From an uncultured Muribaculaceae bacterium (GTDB taxonomy: Bacteria; Bacteroidota; Bacteroidia; Bacteroidales; Muribaculaceae): a stretch of DNA of 64,000 bases. Location: assembly GCA_905233845.1 (NCBI GenBank), contig CAJOFH010000001.1, positions 1 through 64,000 on the forward strand, read 5' to 3'. This document shows, piece by piece, positions 26,404 through 34,601 of this stretch; position 1 is the first letter of the stretch; each line of letters opens with the position of its first letter. Position numbers and translations under genes: made by a program. The notes beneath the pieces are model-generated. The model worked only from the letters and a program-made list of their open reading frames with translations. It was not told the origin of the DNA and ran no database searches.

Positions 26404-28311
26404 GTGAAAACCTTGAACTTTGAAGACTTGATTCAATTCAGGAAAAAAGCTCAGGCGAATCTCAACGTTCGTGAACTGAGTTATGCTGCTGAGAGTGATA
26501 AATGCTGTGGACTGGCCGTTGGCACTGAGCACATTGAGTTGCTGTGCTGCGGAGGTACTGGCTGTAAAGCTTCAAGCAGTGCGAAAATTGTCGACAACTT
26601 GAAGGCTGCCATTGAGGCTAATGGTATTGCTCGTAAAGTTGATGTGATTGTAACAGGATGTTTCGGTTTCTGCGAGAAAGGCCCTATTGTTAAGGTGATG
26701 CCTGACAATACTTTCTACACTCAAGTGAAACCTGAGGACGCCGACGAAATCGTTAAGGAGCATGTGATTGGTGGTCGTCGCGTGGAGCGTTTGCTCTATG
26801 TAGACCCCAAAACCGAGGAGCATGTGAGCGACTCAAAGCACATGGACTTCTACCGTAAGCAGAAGCGTGTTGCTCTGCGTAACTGCGGTTTCATCGATCC
26901 CGAGAATATCGCCGAATACATCGCACGCGACGGTTATGCTGCACTTTCAAACGCTTTGCAGAACCAGACTCCCGAGGAGGTTATCGACATCATCAAGAAG
27001 TCGGGACTCCGTGGACGTGGTGGTGCAGGCTTCCCAACTGGTATGAAGTGGGGATTTGCCCGCAACTATCAGGCCGACCACAAGTATGTGGTTTGTAACG
27101 CCGATGAGGGCGACCCTGGAGCGTTCATGGACCGCTCAATTATGGAGGGTGATCCCCACTCAGTTATTGAGGCTATGGCATTGTGTGGCTTCTGTATTGG
27201 CGCCAACGAAGGTCTTATCTACATCCGTGCCGAGTATCCATTGGCAGTACACCGTCTTAAGATTGCCATTGAGCAGGCTCGTGAATATGGCATGCTTGGC
27301 AAGAAGATTATGGGCAGTGACTTTGATTTTGACATCGAGATCCGCTATGGTGCTGGAGCTTTCGTTTGTGGTGAGGAGACAGCTCTTATCCACTCTATGG
27401 AAGGTAAGCGCGGTGAGCCAACCCTCAAACCTCCCTTCCCCGCCGAGAGCGGTTATATGGGATATCCTACTAACGTTAACAATGTTGAGACTCTTGCCAA
27501 CGTTCCCATCATCCTCACTAAGGGTGCCGACTGGTTCGCATCAATCGGAACTGAGAAGTCAAAGGGTACTAAAGTGTTTGCTTTGGCAGGAAAAATCAAT
27601 AATGTTGGACTTATTGAGGTTCCAATGGGCACTACCTTGCGTGAGATTATATACGACATCGGTGGTGGCGTGAAGAACGGCAAGAAGTTTAAGGCTGTTC
27701 AGACTGGTGGCCCTTCGGGAGGTTGCTTGACCGAGAAGCACCTTGATATTCCAATCGACTACGAGAGCCTCGGAGCTGCTGGCTCAATGATGGGTTCTGG
27801 TGGTATGATTGTTATGGACGAGGACGACTGTATGGTTTCGGTTGCCAAGTTCTATCTTGAGTTCACTGTAGGCGAGTCCTGTGGCAAATGTACACCCTGC
27901 CGCATAGGTAACAAGCGCATGCTTGAGATTTTGACTCGCATCACTGAGGGCAAGGGCACTATGGATGATATTGACCACCTCAAATCGCTTGCTGCTACCA
28001 TTAAGGATACAGCACTCTGTGGTCTTGGTCAAACTTCTCCGAACCCTATATTGTCAACTATCGACAATTTCTATGATGAATATGTAGAGCACGTTAAGAA
28101 GCACACTTGCCGCGCTAAGCAATGTAAGGCTCTCTTGACCTACACCGTTAACCCTGAGAAGTGTAAAGGCTGTGGCGCTTGCGCTCGCAACTGTCCTGCC
28201 GACGCTATCATGGGCGATGTTCGCAAACCACATGTTATTAATCCATTCAAGTGCATCCGTTGCGGTATGTGCCAGTCACGTTGCCACTTCGATGCTATTC
28301 AGATTTTCTAA
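26404..28311 (+). CDS. hydB: trimeric [FeFe] hydrogenase, HydB (NuoF-like) subunit
   Basis: The flavin subunit of a HydABC-type hydrogenase, where NADH and ferredoxin electrons meet. It has 635 residues from a GTG start. Domain order: thioredoxin-like [2Fe-2S] domain (C49-x4-C54, C86-x3-C90); NuoF core with FMN/NADH motifs (GRGGAGFPTGMKW at 204-216, NADEGDPGAF at 232-241); SLBB; a [4Fe-4S] site (C493, C496, C499 in GESCGKCTPC); and two ferredoxin-type [4Fe-4S] clusters at the C terminus (C587, C590, C593, C597; C617, C620, C623, C627). This is the HydB layout of electron-bifurcating or electron-confurcating hydrogenases. hydA follows 21 bp later. Confidence 0.95.
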   Translation: MKTLNFEDLIQFRKKAQANLNVRELSYAAESDKCCGLAVGTEHIELLCCGGTGCKASSSAKIVDNLKAAIEANGIARKVDVIVTGCFGFCEKGPIVKVMPDNTFYTQVKPEDADEIVKEHVIGGRRVERLLYVDPKTEEHVSDSKHMDFYRKQKRVALRNCGFIDPENIAEYIARDGYAALSNALQNQTPEEVIDIIKKSGLRGRGGAGFPTGMKWGFARNYQADHKYVVCNADEGDPGAFMDRSIMEGDPHSVIEAMALCGFCIGANEGLIYIRAEYPLAVHRLKIAIEQAREYGMLGKKIMGSDFDFDIEIRYGAGAFVCGEETALIHSMEGKRGEPTLKPPFPAESGYMGYPTNVNNVETLANVPIILTKGADWFASIGTEKSKGTKVFALAGKINNVGLIEVPMGTTLREIIYDIGGGVKNGKKFKAVQTGGPSGGCLTEKHLDIPIDYESLGAAGSMMGSGGMIVMDEDDCMVSVAKFYLEFTVGESCGKCTPCRIGNKRMLEILTRITEGKGTMDDIDHLKSLAATIKDTALCGLGQTSPNPILSTIDNFYDEYVEHVKKHTCRAKQCKALLTYTVNPEKCKGCGACARNCPADAIMGDVRKPHVINPFKCIRCGMCQSRCHFDAIQIF

Positions 28312-28332: not shown

Positions 28333-30093
28333 ATGGAAGAGAAATTGATAAAACTTACTATAGATAACCACGTAGTGGAAGTGCCTAAGGGAACTACACT
28401 GCTGGAGGCCGGTAAACTCATCGGCATCGATATCCCCACCTTGTGCCACATCGACCTGAAGGGCACTTGTGTGAAGAACAAACCTGCATCGTGTCGCCTG
28501 TGTGTGGTAGAGGTAGAGGGCCGTCGCAACTTGGCTCCCGCCTGCGCTACTGCATGTATGCCCGACATGGTAGTTTATACTAATTCTGCCCGCGTTATTC
28601 GCGCTCGCAAGACCATAGCTGAGCTTATCCTCAGTGATCACCCCAACGATTGCCTCACTTGCCCCAAGTGTAGCGATTGTGAGCTTCAGCGTCTTGTAAT
28701 GCGTCTGAACATTCGTCAGATGCCTTACAACGAAGGCGAGAAGAGCCAGCGCAAGAACGAGGTTACTCCAGCTATCACTCGCAACATGGAGAAATGTATT
28801 TATTGCCGTCGTTGCGAGAGCGTTTGTAACGAAGTTCAAAGTGTTGGTGTTCTAGGTGCCATCCGACGTGGCTTCGACACCACTATTGCTCCAACATTTG
28901 ACCGTATGTTTGTCGATACCGACTGTACCTATTGCGGTCAGTGTGTTGCAGTGTGCCCAGTGGGTGCTCTCACCGAGCGTGACTATACCGATCAGCTCAT
29001 GGCCGACATCACCAATCCCGATAAGGTTGTCGTTGCTCAGCCTGCACCAGCAGTGCGCTTCGCCCTCGGCGAGGAATTTGGCGAGCCAGGCATCGTTACT
29101 GGAAAACTTGCTACCGCATTGCGTGACCTCGGCTTTGACTATGTATTTGATACCGATTTTGCTGCCGACCTCACTATCATGGAGGAAGGTGCCGAGATTC
29201 TTGATCGCCTCAAGAAATTCCTTGCTGGTGACAAGAGCGTGAAATTGCCTATCATGACATCTTGCTGCCCTGCTTGGGTTAACTTCTTTGAGCACAACTA
29301 TCCTGATCTGCTTGAATATCCATCTAGTGCCAAGTCACCAGCTCAGATGTTTGGTGCTATTGCTAAGACCTATTGGGCTGAGAAGATGGGCATTCCACGC
29401 GAGAAACTCGTTGTTGTTTCTATTATGCCTTGCTTGGCTAAGAAGTATGAATGCGGACGTGACGAGTTTAAGGTTGACGGCAATCCTGATGTTGACTATA
29501 GCATCTCTACTCGTGAGCTAGCTCGACTTATCAAGCGTGCTAACATAAACTTCGCTCAACTGCCAGATAGTGACTTCGACAGCCCATTGGGAGAGTCGAC
29601 AGGTGCTGGTGCTATCTTTGGCGTGACTGGCGGTGTTATGGAAGCTGCTCTTAGAACTGTTTATGAGGTTTATACTGGCAAGACTTTGCCTCGTATCAAC
29701 TTTGATAATGTGCGTGGCTTTGAAGGAATACGTGAAGCTAAAATCGATCTTAATGGTTTTGAACTTAAGATATGTGTAGCTCATACCCTCAGCAATGCCC
29801 GTGTCGTTATGGACAAGCTTCGCGCTGGCGAGCTCGACTACCATGTGGTTGAGGTTATGGCATGTCCTGGCGGATGTATTGGTGGTGCAGGTCAGCCTTA
29901 CCACCATGGTAACTTCGATGTTATCCAACAACGCTGCGATGCCCTCTATGCTGAGGACGAAGGCAAGCCCATTCGCAAGAGTCATGAGAACCCCGACATC
30001 CAGAAGCTTTACAAGGAATTCCTGGGCGAGCCTCTGAGCGAGAAGTCTCACCACTTGTTGCACACTCACTATTTTGACAAATCTATTAAGTAA
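28333..30093 (+). CDS. hydA: [FeFe] hydrogenase catalytic subunit HydA
   Basis: Reduces protons to H2, or oxidises H2, at the H-cluster. It has 586 residues. Order: plant-type [2Fe-2S] domain (C38, C54, C57, C71; C46 also present), His/Cys [4Fe-4S] site (H103, C107, C110, C116), two [4Fe-4S] clusters (C155, C158, C161, C165; C198, C201, C204, C208), then the H domain. H-cluster ligands are intact: C312 in TSCCPAW (with proton-transfer C311), C367 in MPCLAKKYE, and C511 and C515 in EVMACPGGCIGG. A small-subunit-like tail follows. This is a prototypical group A enzyme. Confidence 0.96.
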   Translation: MEEKLIKLTIDNHVVEVPKGTTLLEAGKLIGIDIPTLCHIDLKGTCVKNKPASCRLCVVEVEGRRNLAPACATACMPDMVVYTNSARVIRARKTIAELILSDHPNDCLTCPKCSDCELQRLVMRLNIRQMPYNEGEKSQRKNEVTPAITRNMEKCIYCRRCESVCNEVQSVGVLGAIRRGFDTTIAPTFDRMFVDTDCTYCGQCVAVCPVGALTERDYTDQLMADITNPDKVVVAQPAPAVRFALGEEFGEPGIVTGKLATALRDLGFDYVFDTDFAADLTIMEEGAEILDRLKKFLAGDKSVKLPIMTSCCPAWVNFFEHNYPDLLEYPSSAKSPAQMFGAIAKTYWAEKMGIPREKLVVVSIMPCLAKKYECGRDEFKVDGNPDVDYSISTRELARLIKRANINFAQLPDSDFDSPLGESTGAGAIFGVTGGVMEAALRTVYEVYTGKTLPRINFDNVRGFEGIREAKIDLNGFELKICVAHTLSNARVVMDKLRAGELDYHVVEVMACPGGCIGGAGQPYHHGNFDVIQQRCDALYAEDEGKPIRKSHENPDIQKLYKEFLGEPLSEKSHHLLHTHYFDKSIK

Positions 30094-30117: not shown

Positions 30118-30606
30118 ATGGCAAAAGCAAAAGAAATGAAATTGGCATGTAATGTCATTGAGCAGGTGGAGGCCATCTGCGACAAGCATGGTAACAAACC
30201 AGGCGAGCTCATCAATATTCTTCACGAGGCACAGTCGATGCACGGCTACCTCCCCGAGGAAATGCAGCGCATCATCGCACGCAAGCTCAATATACCAGCT
30301 TCTAAGGTTTATGGTGTTGTGACTTTCTATTCGTTCTTCACCATGACTCCTAAGGGCAAGCACCCAATTTCGGTGTGCCTCGGTACTGCTTGCTACGTGC
30401 GTGGCTCTGAGAAGTTGCTTGAGGAGATTAAGCGCATTCTCAACATCGAGGTAGGTGAGACTACCCCCGACGGCAAGTTCTCACTCGACTGCCTGCGTTG
30501 TGTGGGTGCCTGTGGTCTTGCTCCCGTTGTAACCATCGGCGAGAAGGTTTACGGACGCCTCCAACCTAAGGATGTTCAAAAGATTCTCGAAGAGGTGGAC
30601 AACTAA
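30118..30606 (+). CDS. hydC: [FeFe] hydrogenase HydC (NuoE-like) subunit
   Basis: The 162-residue thioredoxin-like [2Fe-2S] subunit that completes the HydABC trimer. The N-terminal helical part (GELINILHEAQSMHGYLPEE) is typical of NuoE. The cluster cysteines are in CLGTACYVRG (C-x4-C) and LRCVGACG (C-x3-C). It starts 24 bp after hydA and is followed by a strong terminator, so hydB-hydA-hydC form one operon. No hydE, hydF or hydG maturase is in this window. Confidence 0.95.
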   Translation: MAKAKEMKLACNVIEQVEAICDKHGNKPGELINILHEAQSMHGYLPEEMQRIIARKLNIPASKVYGVVTFYSFFTMTPKGKHPISVCLGTACYVRGSEKLLEEIKRILNIEVGETTPDGKFSLDCLRCVGACGLAPVVTIGEKVYGRLQPKDVQKILEEVDN

Positions 30607-30625: not shown

Positions 30626-30662
30626 AAAAACGGTCATGACCACAGCGGTCATGACCGTTTTT
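30626..30662 (+). terminator. terminator of the hydBAC operon
   Basis: A 16-bp stem (AAAAACGGTCATGACC with its complement, loop ACAGC at 30642-30646) ends in TTTTT. Its symmetric A/T ends make it potentially bidirectional. Confidence 0.9.
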
Positions 30663-30704: not shown

Positions 30705-30735
30705 TTTGTTGTTTAGGGATTTATAGTTATCTTTG
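30705..30735 (+). promoter_or_regulatory. promoter of the BspA-type LRR gene
   Basis: TTTG (30705-30708), 19 bp, then TATCTTTG (30728-30735). The predicted start is near 30741, which supports the ATG at 30763 and shows that this gene is transcribed separately from hydBAC. Confidence 0.8.
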
Positions 30736-30762: not shown

Positions 30763-32757
30763 ATGAAAACATTATTTCGCAAACAAACTAGTGCTTGGTT
30801 GCGTATTTTAGCAGTAATATCTGCAATGACTGGGTCACTATTGGCAAGTGCCTACGACTTCAAAGTGGGAGATCTGTGTTACAACAAGTATAATGAGACC
30901 ACAGTCTATGTCACTTATGAACTGGAAGGGACTTGGGAACCGCGATACACCAACCTTCCTGCCAATCTCACTATTCCTGCTACTGTGACCTACCAGGGTG
31001 TCACTTACACAGTGGCTTCTATTGGTGAATCTGCATTCCGTTATTGTGAGGGCTTGACTAAAGTTGTTATTTCTAATGGCATTCAAAGCATAGGAGAAGA
31101 TGCTTTTATGGATTGTACTGGTTTGACTTCCATAAACATTCCATCTTCAGTAACAAGCATTGGTGAATCAGCATTATGTCGTTGCTCATCGCTCACTTCG
31201 GTCACGATACCCAATTCCGTTACTACGATGGGCAGTCATGTGTTTTACGAGTGCACAGGACTGAAAAATGTGACTCTTCCCAATCAGTTGAAGACCATTA
31301 CTGCCTATATGTTCTATGGATGCACAAGTCTTGAAAGTTTCAATATGCCTAATTCCGTAACTCATATTCATGGTTCTGCGTTCAGTGAATGTTCTTCACT
31401 GAAAAACGTCACTTGGAGCGAGAATCTTGTTGCTGTGTATGGTCATGCTTTTAAGGGAAGTGCCATAGAGAGTCTTGTGCTTCCAGCATCATTCACCACA
31501 TTTGAGACAATGACATTGAATGGCGCTTTTCAGGGCTGTGCCAAAACATTGAAGTCCATCGTTGTTGCTGAGGACAACCCCGTCTATGACTCTCGTGGCG
31601 GATGCAACGCACTCATTAACACTGCAACCAACACTGTGCTCTTGGGGTGCCGCAACACTGTGATGCCATCTACTGTCACCACCATTGGCAATGACGCTTT
31701 CTGTAATTGTGTGCCTATGACGAGCATTTCGTTCCCATCTTCTGTGAAAAGAATAGAGCAGAACGCATTTAGAGGTTGTACTGGATTGAGGAATGTTGAT
31801 TTCAATCAAGTAACAAGTTTAGCAAACTATGCCTTCGAAAACTGCGGATTGGAGACACTTACCATTCCAGCTTCTTTAACATCGTTTTCCAGCTTTGCAT
31901 TTTGGGGTTGCCCTGCATCACTTAATGAGATTACTGTTGACCCAGGTAATAGTTATTATAGCTCACCTAATGGCTGCAATGCCATTATCAGAGGTACTAC
32001 ATTGGTGCTTGGTTGCAGGAATACCGTAATTCCTAACACTGTGAAATCAGTAGAAGATTGCGCTTTCTTGGGGTGTTCAGCTCTGACAAACCTGGAACTT
32101 CCTGAAGCATTGCTAAGTATTGGTAGTCGCGCTTTTCAGGGTTGCTCAGGTTTGACATCTCTTGAACTTCCCGAAACATTAACGAGCATAGGCTCTTACG
32201 CTTTCTATTCTTGTAGCGGTTTGGAGAGTATTACTATTCCTCCCCTGATAATCAACATTGGCAATTATACTTTTTACAATTGCAGAGCCCTGACAAACAT
32301 TTCCCTTCCATCGGTCAAGACTATAGGTGAGCAAGCTTTTTATTCATGCTCAGGTCTAAATCGTGTGACAATGGGAAGTGAACTAACATCTATAGGAGCG
32401 AGGGCTTTTTATTATTGCCAAAATCTTGAGTCTGTATATTGTTTAGCACCCACTCCACCTACTATTGGGGCATCTTGTTTTTCTGCCAATGCCATCGACA
32501 GAAAAATATATGTACTTGCCGATGCAGTGGAGGCGTATAAAACCAAGTGGAAAGCATACGCCAATGCGATTTTCTCCCTTGCTACAGGTGGCGACGTTGA
32601 TGGCGACGGCACAGTCACGAGTGGTGATGTCACAACTCTCTACAATTTTATCTTAAATAGTGGAGGGACCTATGATCCTTTATTTGATGTGGATGGCGAC
32701 GGGGCTATTACAGCCGCCGATGTGACCATGATTTACAACATTATTTTAGGATTTTGA
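30763..32757 (+). CDS. secreted BspA-type leucine-rich-repeat protein with C-terminal dockerin-like domain
   Basis: A surface protein of 664 residues. The signal peptide (about 1-29, LLASAYD) leads into roughly twenty 23-residue LRR_5 (BspA/TpLRR) repeats of the form SITIPNSVTTIGSHAFYECT, spanning about residues 70-590. Two larger inserts (VVAEDNPVYDSRGGCNALI and a second copy near 400) are characteristic of this family in gut Bacteroidales. The last 55 residues are dockerin-like (DVDGDGTVTSGDVTTLYNFI, DVDGDGAITAADVTMIYNII). Family members bind host matrix or other bacteria; the ligand here is unknown. The ATG at 30763 is chosen over a TTG at 30733 that lies inside the promoter. Confidence 0.9.
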   Translation: MKTLFRKQTSAWLRILAVISAMTGSLLASAYDFKVGDLCYNKYNETTVYVTYELEGTWEPRYTNLPANLTIPATVTYQGVTYTVASIGESAFRYCEGLTKVVISNGIQSIGEDAFMDCTGLTSINIPSSVTSIGESALCRCSSLTSVTIPNSVTTMGSHVFYECTGLKNVTLPNQLKTITAYMFYGCTSLESFNMPNSVTHIHGSAFSECSSLKNVTWSENLVAVYGHAFKGSAIESLVLPASFTTFETMTLNGAFQGCAKTLKSIVVAEDNPVYDSRGGCNALINTATNTVLLGCRNTVMPSTVTTIGNDAFCNCVPMTSISFPSSVKRIEQNAFRGCTGLRNVDFNQVTSLANYAFENCGLETLTIPASLTSFSSFAFWGCPASLNEITVDPGNSYYSSPNGCNAIIRGTTLVLGCRNTVIPNTVKSVEDCAFLGCSALTNLELPEALLSIGSRAFQGCSGLTSLELPETLTSIGSYAFYSCSGLESITIPPLIINIGNYTFYNCRALTNISLPSVKTIGEQAFYSCSGLNRVTMGSELTSIGARAFYYCQNLESVYCLAPTPPTIGASCFSANAIDRKIYVLADAVEAYKTKWKAYANAIFSLATGGDVDGDGTVTSGDVTTLYNFILNSGGTYDPLFDVDGDGAITAADVTMIYNIILGF

Positions 32758-32786: not shown

Positions 32787-34601
32787 ATGTCAGAAAACAA
32801 ACAACCTAAAACTCCAACAAACCTAAAACCAGCCGAGTCGCAGGCTGCCAGTATTGAACAAAATTATGGTCTGAAAGCTCACGACTATGTTCAGGTGCAG
32901 TGCTGTTCGGGTAAGGCATGTCGTAAAAACGATAGCGAGCGCATCATCAATCTTTTCAAGATGATGCTGCATGCCCACGGCATCGACGATATGGTCGATG
33001 TGGTTACATCGGGATGCTTTGGATTCTGTGCCAAAGGTCCTATAGTGCGCATTCTCCCCGACAACATCACCTACACCCACGTCAAGCCCGAAGATGTGAA
33101 CGTAATTGTCGAAAAACATGTTGTGCGAGGTGAACTTGTCGATGAGTTAAGATATGTGGAAGCTGCAGTTCATCACCTTGAGGTTGAGTCGCGACAATGG
33201 AGTTCCTTTAAACGACCCGTGTCGCTTGACTCGATGCTAAACCACTATATTTATGAAATTGGTGGCACACCATTCTTGAATGTGCTGTCCTATGTCATCG
33301 ACTCCGAGAAATGCCGTGGTTGCACTGCATGTAAGCGTAATTGTCCGGTTAATGCTATAAGTGGAGTTGTAAAACAGCCCCATGTTATTAATCCATACAA
33401 ATGCACGTGTTGCGGTAAGTGCAAAACTAAGTGCAAGTTCGACGCTATCGATGGTCCCATTGGTGTGCTTGATGAGCGCAATTCTATCAATGATGTGCTT
33501 GCCGACATCAAAGACACCGATAAGCTCGTCATCGCTCAAACAGCTCCTGCTGTGCGATTTGCTTTAGGAGAGGAATTTGGGTTGGCACCGGGAACAGTAG
33601 TGACGGGTAAGATGATAACAGCATTGCGCAAGTTGGGATTTGACTATGTGTTTGACACCAACTTTGGTGCCGATTTCACCATCATGGAAGAAAGCGCTGA
33701 ACTTATCGACCGTCTCAAGCGTCGCATTGCTGGTGATCCCGATGTTAAGCTTCCCATGACAACTTCGTGCTGCCCAGCATGGGTAAATTTCTTTGAGAAT
33801 GATTATCCCGACTTGCGTGAATATCCTTCTACATGTAAGTCGCCGGCGCAGATGTTTGGCACCATTGCCAAGTCTTTCTGGGCCGAGAGGATTGGGATTC
33901 CCCGCGAAAACATATCGGTTATCTCTATCATGCCATGTGTGGCTAAGAAATATGAGTGCGCACGCGACGAGTTTATCTATGATGGCATACCCGATGTGGA
34001 TTGCAGTATTACAACATTGGAGCTTGCCGAGATGATTAAAAATGAAGGAATTGACTTTGTGGAATTGCCAAATGGTCAGTTCGACTCTCCACTTGGCGAC
34101 GCAACGGGAGCAGGAACAATATTTGGAACTACAGGAGGTGTGACCGAAGCCGTGTTGCGCACCGCATACGAGAAATTCACTGGTAAAACATTGCAGAAGA
34201 TTGAGTTCACACAGGTGCGTGGCATGGACGGCATTCGCGAGGCCACAATCGACATGGAAGGTTTTGAACTCAAGGTGTGTTTGGTTCACACGCTCAACAA
34301 TGCCCGCATCATTATGGACAAACTTCGTGCTGGGGAGCTTGACTATCATCTCATTGAGGTGATGTCTTGCCCAGGTGGATGCATTGGCGGTACTGGGCAG
34401 CCTTATCACCATGGCGACATTAGTGTGCTCGAGGCACGCCAGCGATCTATGTATGCCACCGATGTCACTAAGATAGTACGCAAGAGCCACGAGAGTCCTG
34501 CCGTTAAACGGATTTACGATGAGTACTTGGGTAAGCCTCTGGGTAAGAAAGCACACAAGCTGCTTCACACTCATTTCCGTGACAAGTCAATTATATCATA
34601 G
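32787..34601 (+). CDS. chimeric [FeFe] hydrogenase: HydB-type thioredoxin and ferredoxin modules joined to a HydA catalytic domain
   Basis: A second hydrogenase of 604 residues from the ATG at 32787 (a TTG at 32754 overlaps the preceding gene and is unlikely). Residues 30-125 match the thioredoxin-like [2Fe-2S] domain of HydB (C40-x4-C45, C77-x3-C81). Residues 170-222 match the two C-terminal HydB [4Fe-4S] clusters (C176, C179, C182, C186; C206, C209, C212, C216). Residues 245-604 match the HydA H domain throughout, with all H-cluster ligands (C329, C384, C528, C532) and proton-transfer C328. The NuoF FMN/NADH core and the HydA-type [2Fe-2S] and His/Cys sites are absent. It is probably an active ferredoxin-linked or sensory hydrogenase; which one is unknown. 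Confidence 0.9.
   Translation: MSENKQPKTPTNLKPAESQAASIEQNYGLKAHDYVQVQCCSGKACRKNDSERIINLFKMMLHAHGIDDMVDVVTSGCFGFCAKGPIVRILPDNITYTHVKPEDVNVIVEKHVVRGELVDELRYVEAAVHHLEVESRQWSSFKRPVSLDSMLNHYIYEIGGTPFLNVLSYVIDSEKCRGCTACKRNCPVNAISGVVKQPHVINPYKCTCCGKCKTKCKFDAIDGPIGVLDERNSINDVLADIKDTDKLVIAQTAPAVRFALGEEFGLAPGTVVTGKMITALRKLGFDYVFDTNFGADFTIMEESAELIDRLKRRIAGDPDVKLPMTTSCCPAWVNFFENDYPDLREYPSTCKSPAQMFGTIAKSFWAERIGIPRENISVISIMPCVAKKYECARDEFIYDGIPDVDCSITTLELAEMIKNEGIDFVELPNGQFDSPLGDATGAGTIFGTTGGVTEAVLRTAYEKFTGKTLQKIEFTQVRGMDGIREATIDMEGFELKVCLVHTLNNARIIMDKLRAGELDYHLIEVMSCPGGCIGGTGQPYHHGDISVLEARQRSMYATDVTKIVRKSHESPAVKRIYDEYLGKPLGKKAHKLLHTHFRDKSIIS

Follow-up and report, generated by a model that had tools for sequence, protein, structure and literature searches.

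A fusion of HydB-type electron-transfer domains to a HydA-type H domain in an uncultured Muribaculaceae bacterium

The 64,000-nucleotide stretch analyzed here, hereafter the window (positions 1 to 64,000 of contig CAJOFH010000001.1, assembly GCA_905233845.1, from an uncultured Muribaculaceae bacterium), encodes a second [FeFe] hydrogenase downstream of hydBAC. This protein, the fusion, is specified by an intact open reading frame (ORF) of 604 codons and joins a thioredoxin (TRX)-like [2Fe-2S] domain and a 2[4Fe-4S] ferredoxin-like domain, both of HydB type, to the H domain of HydA. Sequence comparisons establish its domain order, its junction, a single origin in the genus, conserved cluster ligands, and purifying selection. 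We propose, with a probability of roughly 0.62, that the fusion is a single-polypeptide, ferredoxin-linked group A hydrogenase that arose from duplicated local hydBA genes and is present beside a confurcating HydABC.

Architecture, conservation, and origin

Analysis with Pfam revealed PF01257 (residues 27-110), Fer4 (169-192), PF02906 (247-535), and PF02256 (547-600) in the fusion. Complex1_51K and NADH_4Fe-4S, both present in the window's HydB, were absent, as were Fer2_4 and NADH-G_4Fe-4S_3, both present in its HydA. This bears out the original prediction, made from the sequence of the window, that the NADH/FMN core of HydB and the N-terminal Fe-S modules of HydA are missing. Pfam also found no PAS domain and no fused acceptor domain in the protein.

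Pairwise identities were obtained by comparing the fusion with the window's own proteins using BLASTP. Residues 6-143 matched HydB 13-152 with 38% identity (E = 3e-28) and residues 166-221 matched HydB 577-632 with 59% identity (E = 6e-21). The resemblance to HydB claimed for the TRX-like and ferredoxin parts thus held at both ends, in agreement with the tree described below. HydC matched the TRX part weakly (28%, E = 3e-4). Residues 206-602 matched HydA 198-585 with 65% identity; the homology to HydA predicted for residues 245-604 stood, but its start lies at ~224 rather than 245. Specifically, residues 224-231 (PIGVLDER; PVGALSER in the other fusion clade) align with HydA PVGALTER, which directly follows the last Cys of HydA's own ferredoxin domain, and the fusion up to ~residue 222, ending in FDAI, corresponds to HydB's own C-terminus. 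As judged from this alignment, HydB ~1-152 and 574-632 took the place of HydA ~1-208, and HydA was kept from ~209 on. Internally deleted HydB whose ends were joined to the HydA H domain, as first proposed, is therefore the right description by BLASTP and by both trees.

The cluster ligands were invariant in the 41 aligned fusion copies: Cys 39, 40, 45, 77, and 81 of the TRX domain, all eight Cys of the ferredoxin domain (between residues 176 and 216), and, as had been anticipated for the H-cluster, C328, C329, C384, C528, and C532 of the H domain. The H-domain motifs of the window's copy are TSCCPAW (326-332), MPCVAKKYE (382-390), and EVMSCPGGCIGGTGQP (524-539). The L1, L2, and L3 motifs as defined in PMC11926857, including the proton-relay Cys (PMC8163306), were present in 41/41 copies; L1 is TSCCPAW, and both Met of L2 and L3 are kept, in every copy. 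Y154, Y156, and EIGG 157-160 of the linker were invariant in 25 aligned copies. At the sequence level, the fusion is under purifying selection: the ratio of nonsynonymous to synonymous substitution rates (dN/dS) was 0.00-0.16 across the TRX, linker, ferredoxin, and H parts (7 pairs with unsaturated dS). Seven H-domain sites are fixed differently from the HydA of the genus (at least 95% on each side; 41 fusions and 33 HydA), including T325, next to TSCCP, where HydA has M, and T536, within the L3 motif, where HydA has A.

The first structure model (A2) had a predicted local distance difference test (pLDDT) score of 69 and lacked a modelled TRX part. A second model (A4), based on an alignment with HydB and HydA fragments, reached a pLDDT of 80 and a predicted template modeling score of 0.66, with residues 124-167, spanning the linker, below a pLDDT of 50. 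An alignment containing whole HydB rows (A3) was not used, as the HydB core seemed to land on H-domain columns. In fold searches, the best structural matches were monomeric group A hydrogenases (CpI, CbA5H); these searches were filled by hydrogenases and barely probed residues 1-158, and the TRX part was judged from its sequence alone.

Trees were calculated from the fusion, HydA, and HydB proteins of named loci, of genomes of the order, and of genus genomes without the fusion. Thirty-two loci (L001-L002, L052-L081) were excluded as presumed repeats of genomes already included, and thinning by identity reduced the fusion rows from 41 to 14, genus HydA from 35 to 10, and other HydA from 40 to 38. 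In the H-domain tree, the 14 fusion rows formed one clade (support 100/99), and the fusion and genus HydA together (24 rows) formed a clade (100/100) that excluded the remaining 38 HydA rows. This grouping with the genus's own HydA supports duplication and fusion, for which such a tree had been suggested as the check. In the TRX+ferredoxin tree (14 fusion, 13 genus HydB, and 25 other HydB rows), the fusion again formed a clade (100/100), as did the fusion with genus HydB (27 rows, 99/96). Trees of the TRX and ferredoxin parts alone, with few columns each, recovered the fusion as one clade at 94/97 and 87/85, respectively.

Because the fusion groups with genus HydA and genus HydB in separate trees, both halves derive from the genus's own hydBA genes, most simply joined once. 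The event is old within the genus and not confined to the window's genome. A position nested inside genus HydA (99/92) was dropped since a sister position survived the approximately unbiased (AU) test (p = 0.52), and the origin is accordingly placed with the genus's HydA.

Some loci of the genus have unusual hyd clusters. In G146 (L112:2258-5947), HydB is 90% but HydA is 77% identical to the window's; this HydA and that of L016 are the nearest to the fusion H domains in the tree, and recombination or gene conversion within the hyd cluster is possible. At L028:1666-5361, hydB and hydA form one 1232-residue frame via an apparent small indel at the hydB end. This may be an assembly indel, and the read-through illustrates the ease of joining a HydB end with HydA. 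At L005:5607-7808, HydA and HydC form one 734-residue frame in which the HydA end is lost, perhaps an assembly artefact.

Distribution and relation to known hydrogenases

Using a hidden Markov model built from 25 fusions, we surveyed 101 genomes of the genus, the window's own included. A full-length fusion was found in 55, of which 52 also have HydA; two more genomes carry a copy cut by a contig end. In an earlier sample of the family, the fusion occurred in 30 of 40 genus genomes and in 0 of 257 genomes of the other genera. High-scoring HydA matches were likewise listed for this genus only in that sample. The fusion was also present in 42 of 49 named loci, complete in 40 of them and truncated by a contig end in 2. 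The named loci are metagenome assemblies attributed to uncultured Bacteroidales, Prevotellaceae, Porphyromonadaceae, and Muribaculaceae, several of them from rumen or gut, and the contig scan behind them reaches close relatives only.

In the large genome samples (family, order, phylum, and second phylum), the best 3-5 first-look candidates were scored per genome. No protein spanning from the TRX to the H domain was found among the matches listed for the order (393 genomes), in the phylum sample (247 genomes), among the matches listed in the second phylum (249 genomes, reached from an Oscillospiraceae-titled genome), or in five genomes of other phyla. The listed matches reach E ~1e-130 for the order and ~1e-139 for the second phylum, and a less similar protein with this architecture may exist there. 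Recurrence of the architecture in many phyla, which the original prediction had named as evidence against itself, was not seen among the matches listed outside the genus. One apparent exception, Omnitrophota L045, seemed to cover query residues 33-604 and proved to be a HydA of the usual kind that carries a TRX-like domain at its C-terminus.

The fusion scored 463.4 bits against TIGR02512 (NCBIfam, [FeFe] hydrogenase group A), above the cut-off of 405.95. Against the full-length HydA profile NF040763, it reached 578 bits versus the 765 required, matching profile positions 183-571 only. It also lacks the FMN/NADH (51 kDa) domain of the group A3/A6 bifurcating HydABC. Every domain of the fusion is nonetheless homologous to a HydA or HydB domain, and the trees identify HydABC (group A3; A6 in NCBIfam) as the source complex, from which the fusion differs in having neither the FMN/NADH core nor the N-terminal [2Fe-2S]/[4Fe-4S] chain of HydA and in being a single polypeptide. 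CpI and CbA5H are similarly single chains in which a 2[4Fe-4S] domain adjoins a group A H domain, whereas the fusion has a HydB-type TRX-like [2Fe-2S] domain in place of their N-terminal modules and a different ancestry. CpI-type A1 enzymes carry N-terminal plant-type [2Fe-2S] and NADH-G-type modules, and M2-type hydrogenases are not known to carry a TRX domain. The CpI modules, PF13510 and PF10588, were absent from the fusion by Pfam.

In HydDB, A1 is the default for enzymes with no NuoF-, GltA/GltD-, or HycB-type protein encoded immediately downstream (PMC5037454). The gene downstream of the fusion, on the opposite strand, encodes a 2-hydroxyacid dehydrogenase, which agrees with this default; under that rule, a classifier using the H domain and downstream gene alone would label the fusion A1. 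The M2-type enzymes of D. desulfuricans and M. elsdenii (PMC8163306) have the core of 2[4Fe-4S] and H domains in common with the fusion, in which the 2[4Fe-4S] domain is instead of HydB origin. The Nyctotherus ovalis hydrogenase is likewise a natural chimera, combining an [FeFe] H domain with modules of the 24 kDa and 51 kDa types (PMC2216082), but it retains the 51 kDa (NADH) module, with NADH as donor, while the fusion has lost that part (PF01512 absent). The hydrogenase-rubrerythrin HydR of C. perfringens is also a natural fusion that gives a new electron route, although its partner is a catalytic rubrerythrin rather than the electron-transfer modules of a sister subunit (PMC11926857). As group A is reported to have diversified chiefly via domain architecture and quaternary structure (PMC5037454), the fusion represents a new arrangement of a known kind of enzyme. 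A prior description, which the original prediction had allowed for, was not found in the literature searched, which took in the available text of the review PMC8924675 but neither the 2010 paper that introduced the modular classification nor most subscription papers.

Locus and genome context

Table 1. Features of the hyd region and of the fusion gene in the window.
Feature	Position	Strand	Basis or remark
hydB (TRX, FMN/NADH core, NADH_4Fe-4S, C-terminal 2[4Fe-4S])	26404..28311	+	Pfam
hydA, group A6 NADH-dependent [FeFe] hydrogenase, 865 bits vs cut-off 765	28333..30093	+	NCBIfam
hydC (NuoE-like)	30118..30606	+	Pfam
Terminator-like hairpin after hydC, 16 pairs	30626..30662	+	Hairpin scan
TTG-N19-TAnnTTTG promoter-like site, ahead of the leucine-rich repeat (LRR) gene	30706..30735	+	Motif match
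BspA-type LRR protein with C-terminal dockerin	30763..32757	+	Between promoter-like site and fusion gene
Fusion hydrogenase gene (TRX-like [2Fe-2S], 2[4Fe-4S], H domain), 604 aa	32787..34601	+	ORF, Pfam, BLASTP, NCBIfam TIGR02512
Thioredoxin-like [2Fe-2S] domain, residues 30-125, HydB N-terminal origin	32874..33161	+	Pfam, BLASTP, tree, alignment
Linker, residues 126-165	33162..33281	+	Model (low confidence), alignment
2[4Fe-4S] ferredoxin-like domain, residues 166-222, HydB C-terminal ("bridge" domain) origin	33282..33452	+	BLASTP, tree, alignment
Inferred junction G223/P224, HydB ...FDAI to HydA PVGALTER	33453..33458	+	Alignment
H domain and small-subunit-like tail, residues 224-602	33456..34592	+	Pfam, alignment

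The fusion ORF starts no more than 500 bp from hydC, and on its strand, in 25 of the 33 loci with both genes in reach, the window counted. Promoter-like sites and hairpins were counted in the 26 loci with a hydC-fusion gap of at most 700 bp, excluding the window; as these loci are related to one another, their counts cannot be treated as independent. Of the 26, 20 have a T-rich hairpin after hydC and 23 have a TAnnTTTG site upstream of the fusion (expected 3.7; maximum 8 in 200 shuffles), with a TTG 18-21 bp before that site in 14 of the 23 (expected 0.3; maximum 2). We take TTG-N19-TAnnTTTG to be the Bacteroidetes promoter consensus. The fusion is thus, on sequence grounds, likely a separate transcription unit with its own promoter in most relatives, and the hairpins and TAnnTTTG sites argue against placing it in the hyd operon as a fourth gene. 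Scans of the window for general sigma-70 sites and for terminators gave no more hits than shuffled sequence. In the window, the fusion ATG lies 29 bp past the stop of the LRR/dockerin gene; the gap from hydC to the fusion likewise exceeds 600 bp in 7 of 32 other loci.

The genes after the fusion resemble SerA, SerC, and glutamate dehydrogenase. The window's own genome encodes HydF and HydG on contig 17, as well as PFOR, and has two H-domain family matches, hydA and the fusion. For RnfC, nothing above the cut-off was found in this genome. RnfC was present in 0 of 6 genus genomes versus 40 of 103 other genomes of the family, which is suggestive only. From the distribution of HydA and RnfC, replacement of a ferredoxin outlet in the genus is conceivable.

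Proposed function and alternatives

In bifurcating hydrogenases, clusters B3/B4 and B5 have been assigned to the ferredoxin arm (PMC9499530, PMC8880783). In the reading we favor, the fusion would be active as a hydrogenase, and electrons from reduced ferredoxin would enter at the HydB-derived 2[4Fe-4S] domain, corresponding to B3/B4. Because this domain replaces HydA's own 2[4Fe-4S] domain, electrons could then flow directly to the H-cluster, where protons would be reduced to H2. Neither NADH nor FMN would be involved, so the enzyme would neither bifurcate nor confurcate. The TRX-like [2Fe-2S] domain, on its flexible linker, may act as a tethered docking or relay module. Overall, the fusion would provide a ferredoxin-only valve alongside the confurcating HydABC, driven in most relatives by a promoter of its own.

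Several observations weigh against this reading. HydA occurs without the fusion in 19 of the 101 genus genomes. Among these is G060, which has other genes instead of the fusion even though its HydB shares 97% and its HydA 96% identity with those of the window; the fusion is therefore dispensable. The TRX+ferredoxin part evolves rapidly, with stem branches of 0.57 and 0.59 versus 0.16 and 0.27 for the H domain, which could point to a different partner. The ferredoxin domain was modelled at middling confidence (pLDDT 49-89 in 10-residue blocks), and the link of B3/B4 to ferredoxin has likewise only been proposed (PMC9499530, PMC8880783).

It is unlikely that the fusion instead binds HydC and/or HydB via its TRX domain, as an alternative catalytic subunit in a variant complex or as a modulator of HydABC. 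Its proximity to hydBAC and co-occurrence with HydA would suit such a role, as would the contact between the N-terminal domain of HydB and the C-terminal domain of HydC in a NiFe homologue (PMC8880783). However, the fusion lacks the entire HydB core and the HydA N-terminal domain, which conducts electrons between the H-cluster and the flavin side, and the separate promoter-like site and hairpin in most relatives also argue against a subunit or regulator. Quite improbable, too, is an enzyme working toward H2 oxidation in which electrons from another donor enter, or electrons bound for another acceptor leave, through the TRX [2Fe-2S] domain. HydR demonstrates that a chimeric hydrogenase can have a strong uptake bias (PMC11926857), and the seven fixed H-domain differences, two of them near cluster motifs, could reflect such a change. 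Nevertheless, no acceptor domain is fused to the protein, and a PFOR able to supply ferredoxin, together with the failure to find RnfC in the same genome, favors ferredoxin disposal.

A sensory role comparable to that of HydS (groups C/D), which often also adjoin group A operons, is very improbable. The fusion is a second hydrogenase beside HydABC and has two [4Fe-4S] motifs ahead of the H domain, as do M2e/M2f (PMC8163306). In the sensory types, however, the relay Cys (C299) is missing, the Met residues are altered, and a C-terminal Cx2Cx4Cx16C motif is present, whereas all 41 fusions keep the relay Cys (C328) and both Met, and the window's copy has no Cys after C532 and hence no such motif. 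The absence of a PAS domain and the metabolic character of the next genes likewise speak against sensing. That the gene is an assembly chimera or is decaying is scarcely credible. The named loci do come from metagenomes, and some have indel-like read-throughs in neighboring genes, but the architecture is identical in 55 genomes and in the 40 complete and 2 contig-cut named loci, and the conserved ligands and low dN/dS are at odds with both artefact and decay.

A more speculative extension of the ferredoxin-linked reading is that wiring the ferredoxin arm to the H-cluster yields an adjustable bypass of HydABC, possibly sharing HydC or the docking site at the bridge domain with it, through which one genome could switch between coupled and uncoupled H2 formation; we regard this as tentative.

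The ferredoxin site of bifurcating HydABC and the roles of B3, B4, and B5 have been argued from structures (PMC9499530, PMC8880783). The fusion represents a natural minimal construct in which the B3/B4 and B5 modules and the H-cluster were kept and the flavin and NADH parts were dropped. If its electrons indeed come from ferredoxin, it would support the ferredoxin-arm assignment without engineering. A gut and rumen genus would also gain an H2 enzyme for which no description was found in the literature searched, including the available text of PMC8924675, and one domain exchange may suffice to switch a hydrogenase's electron partner.
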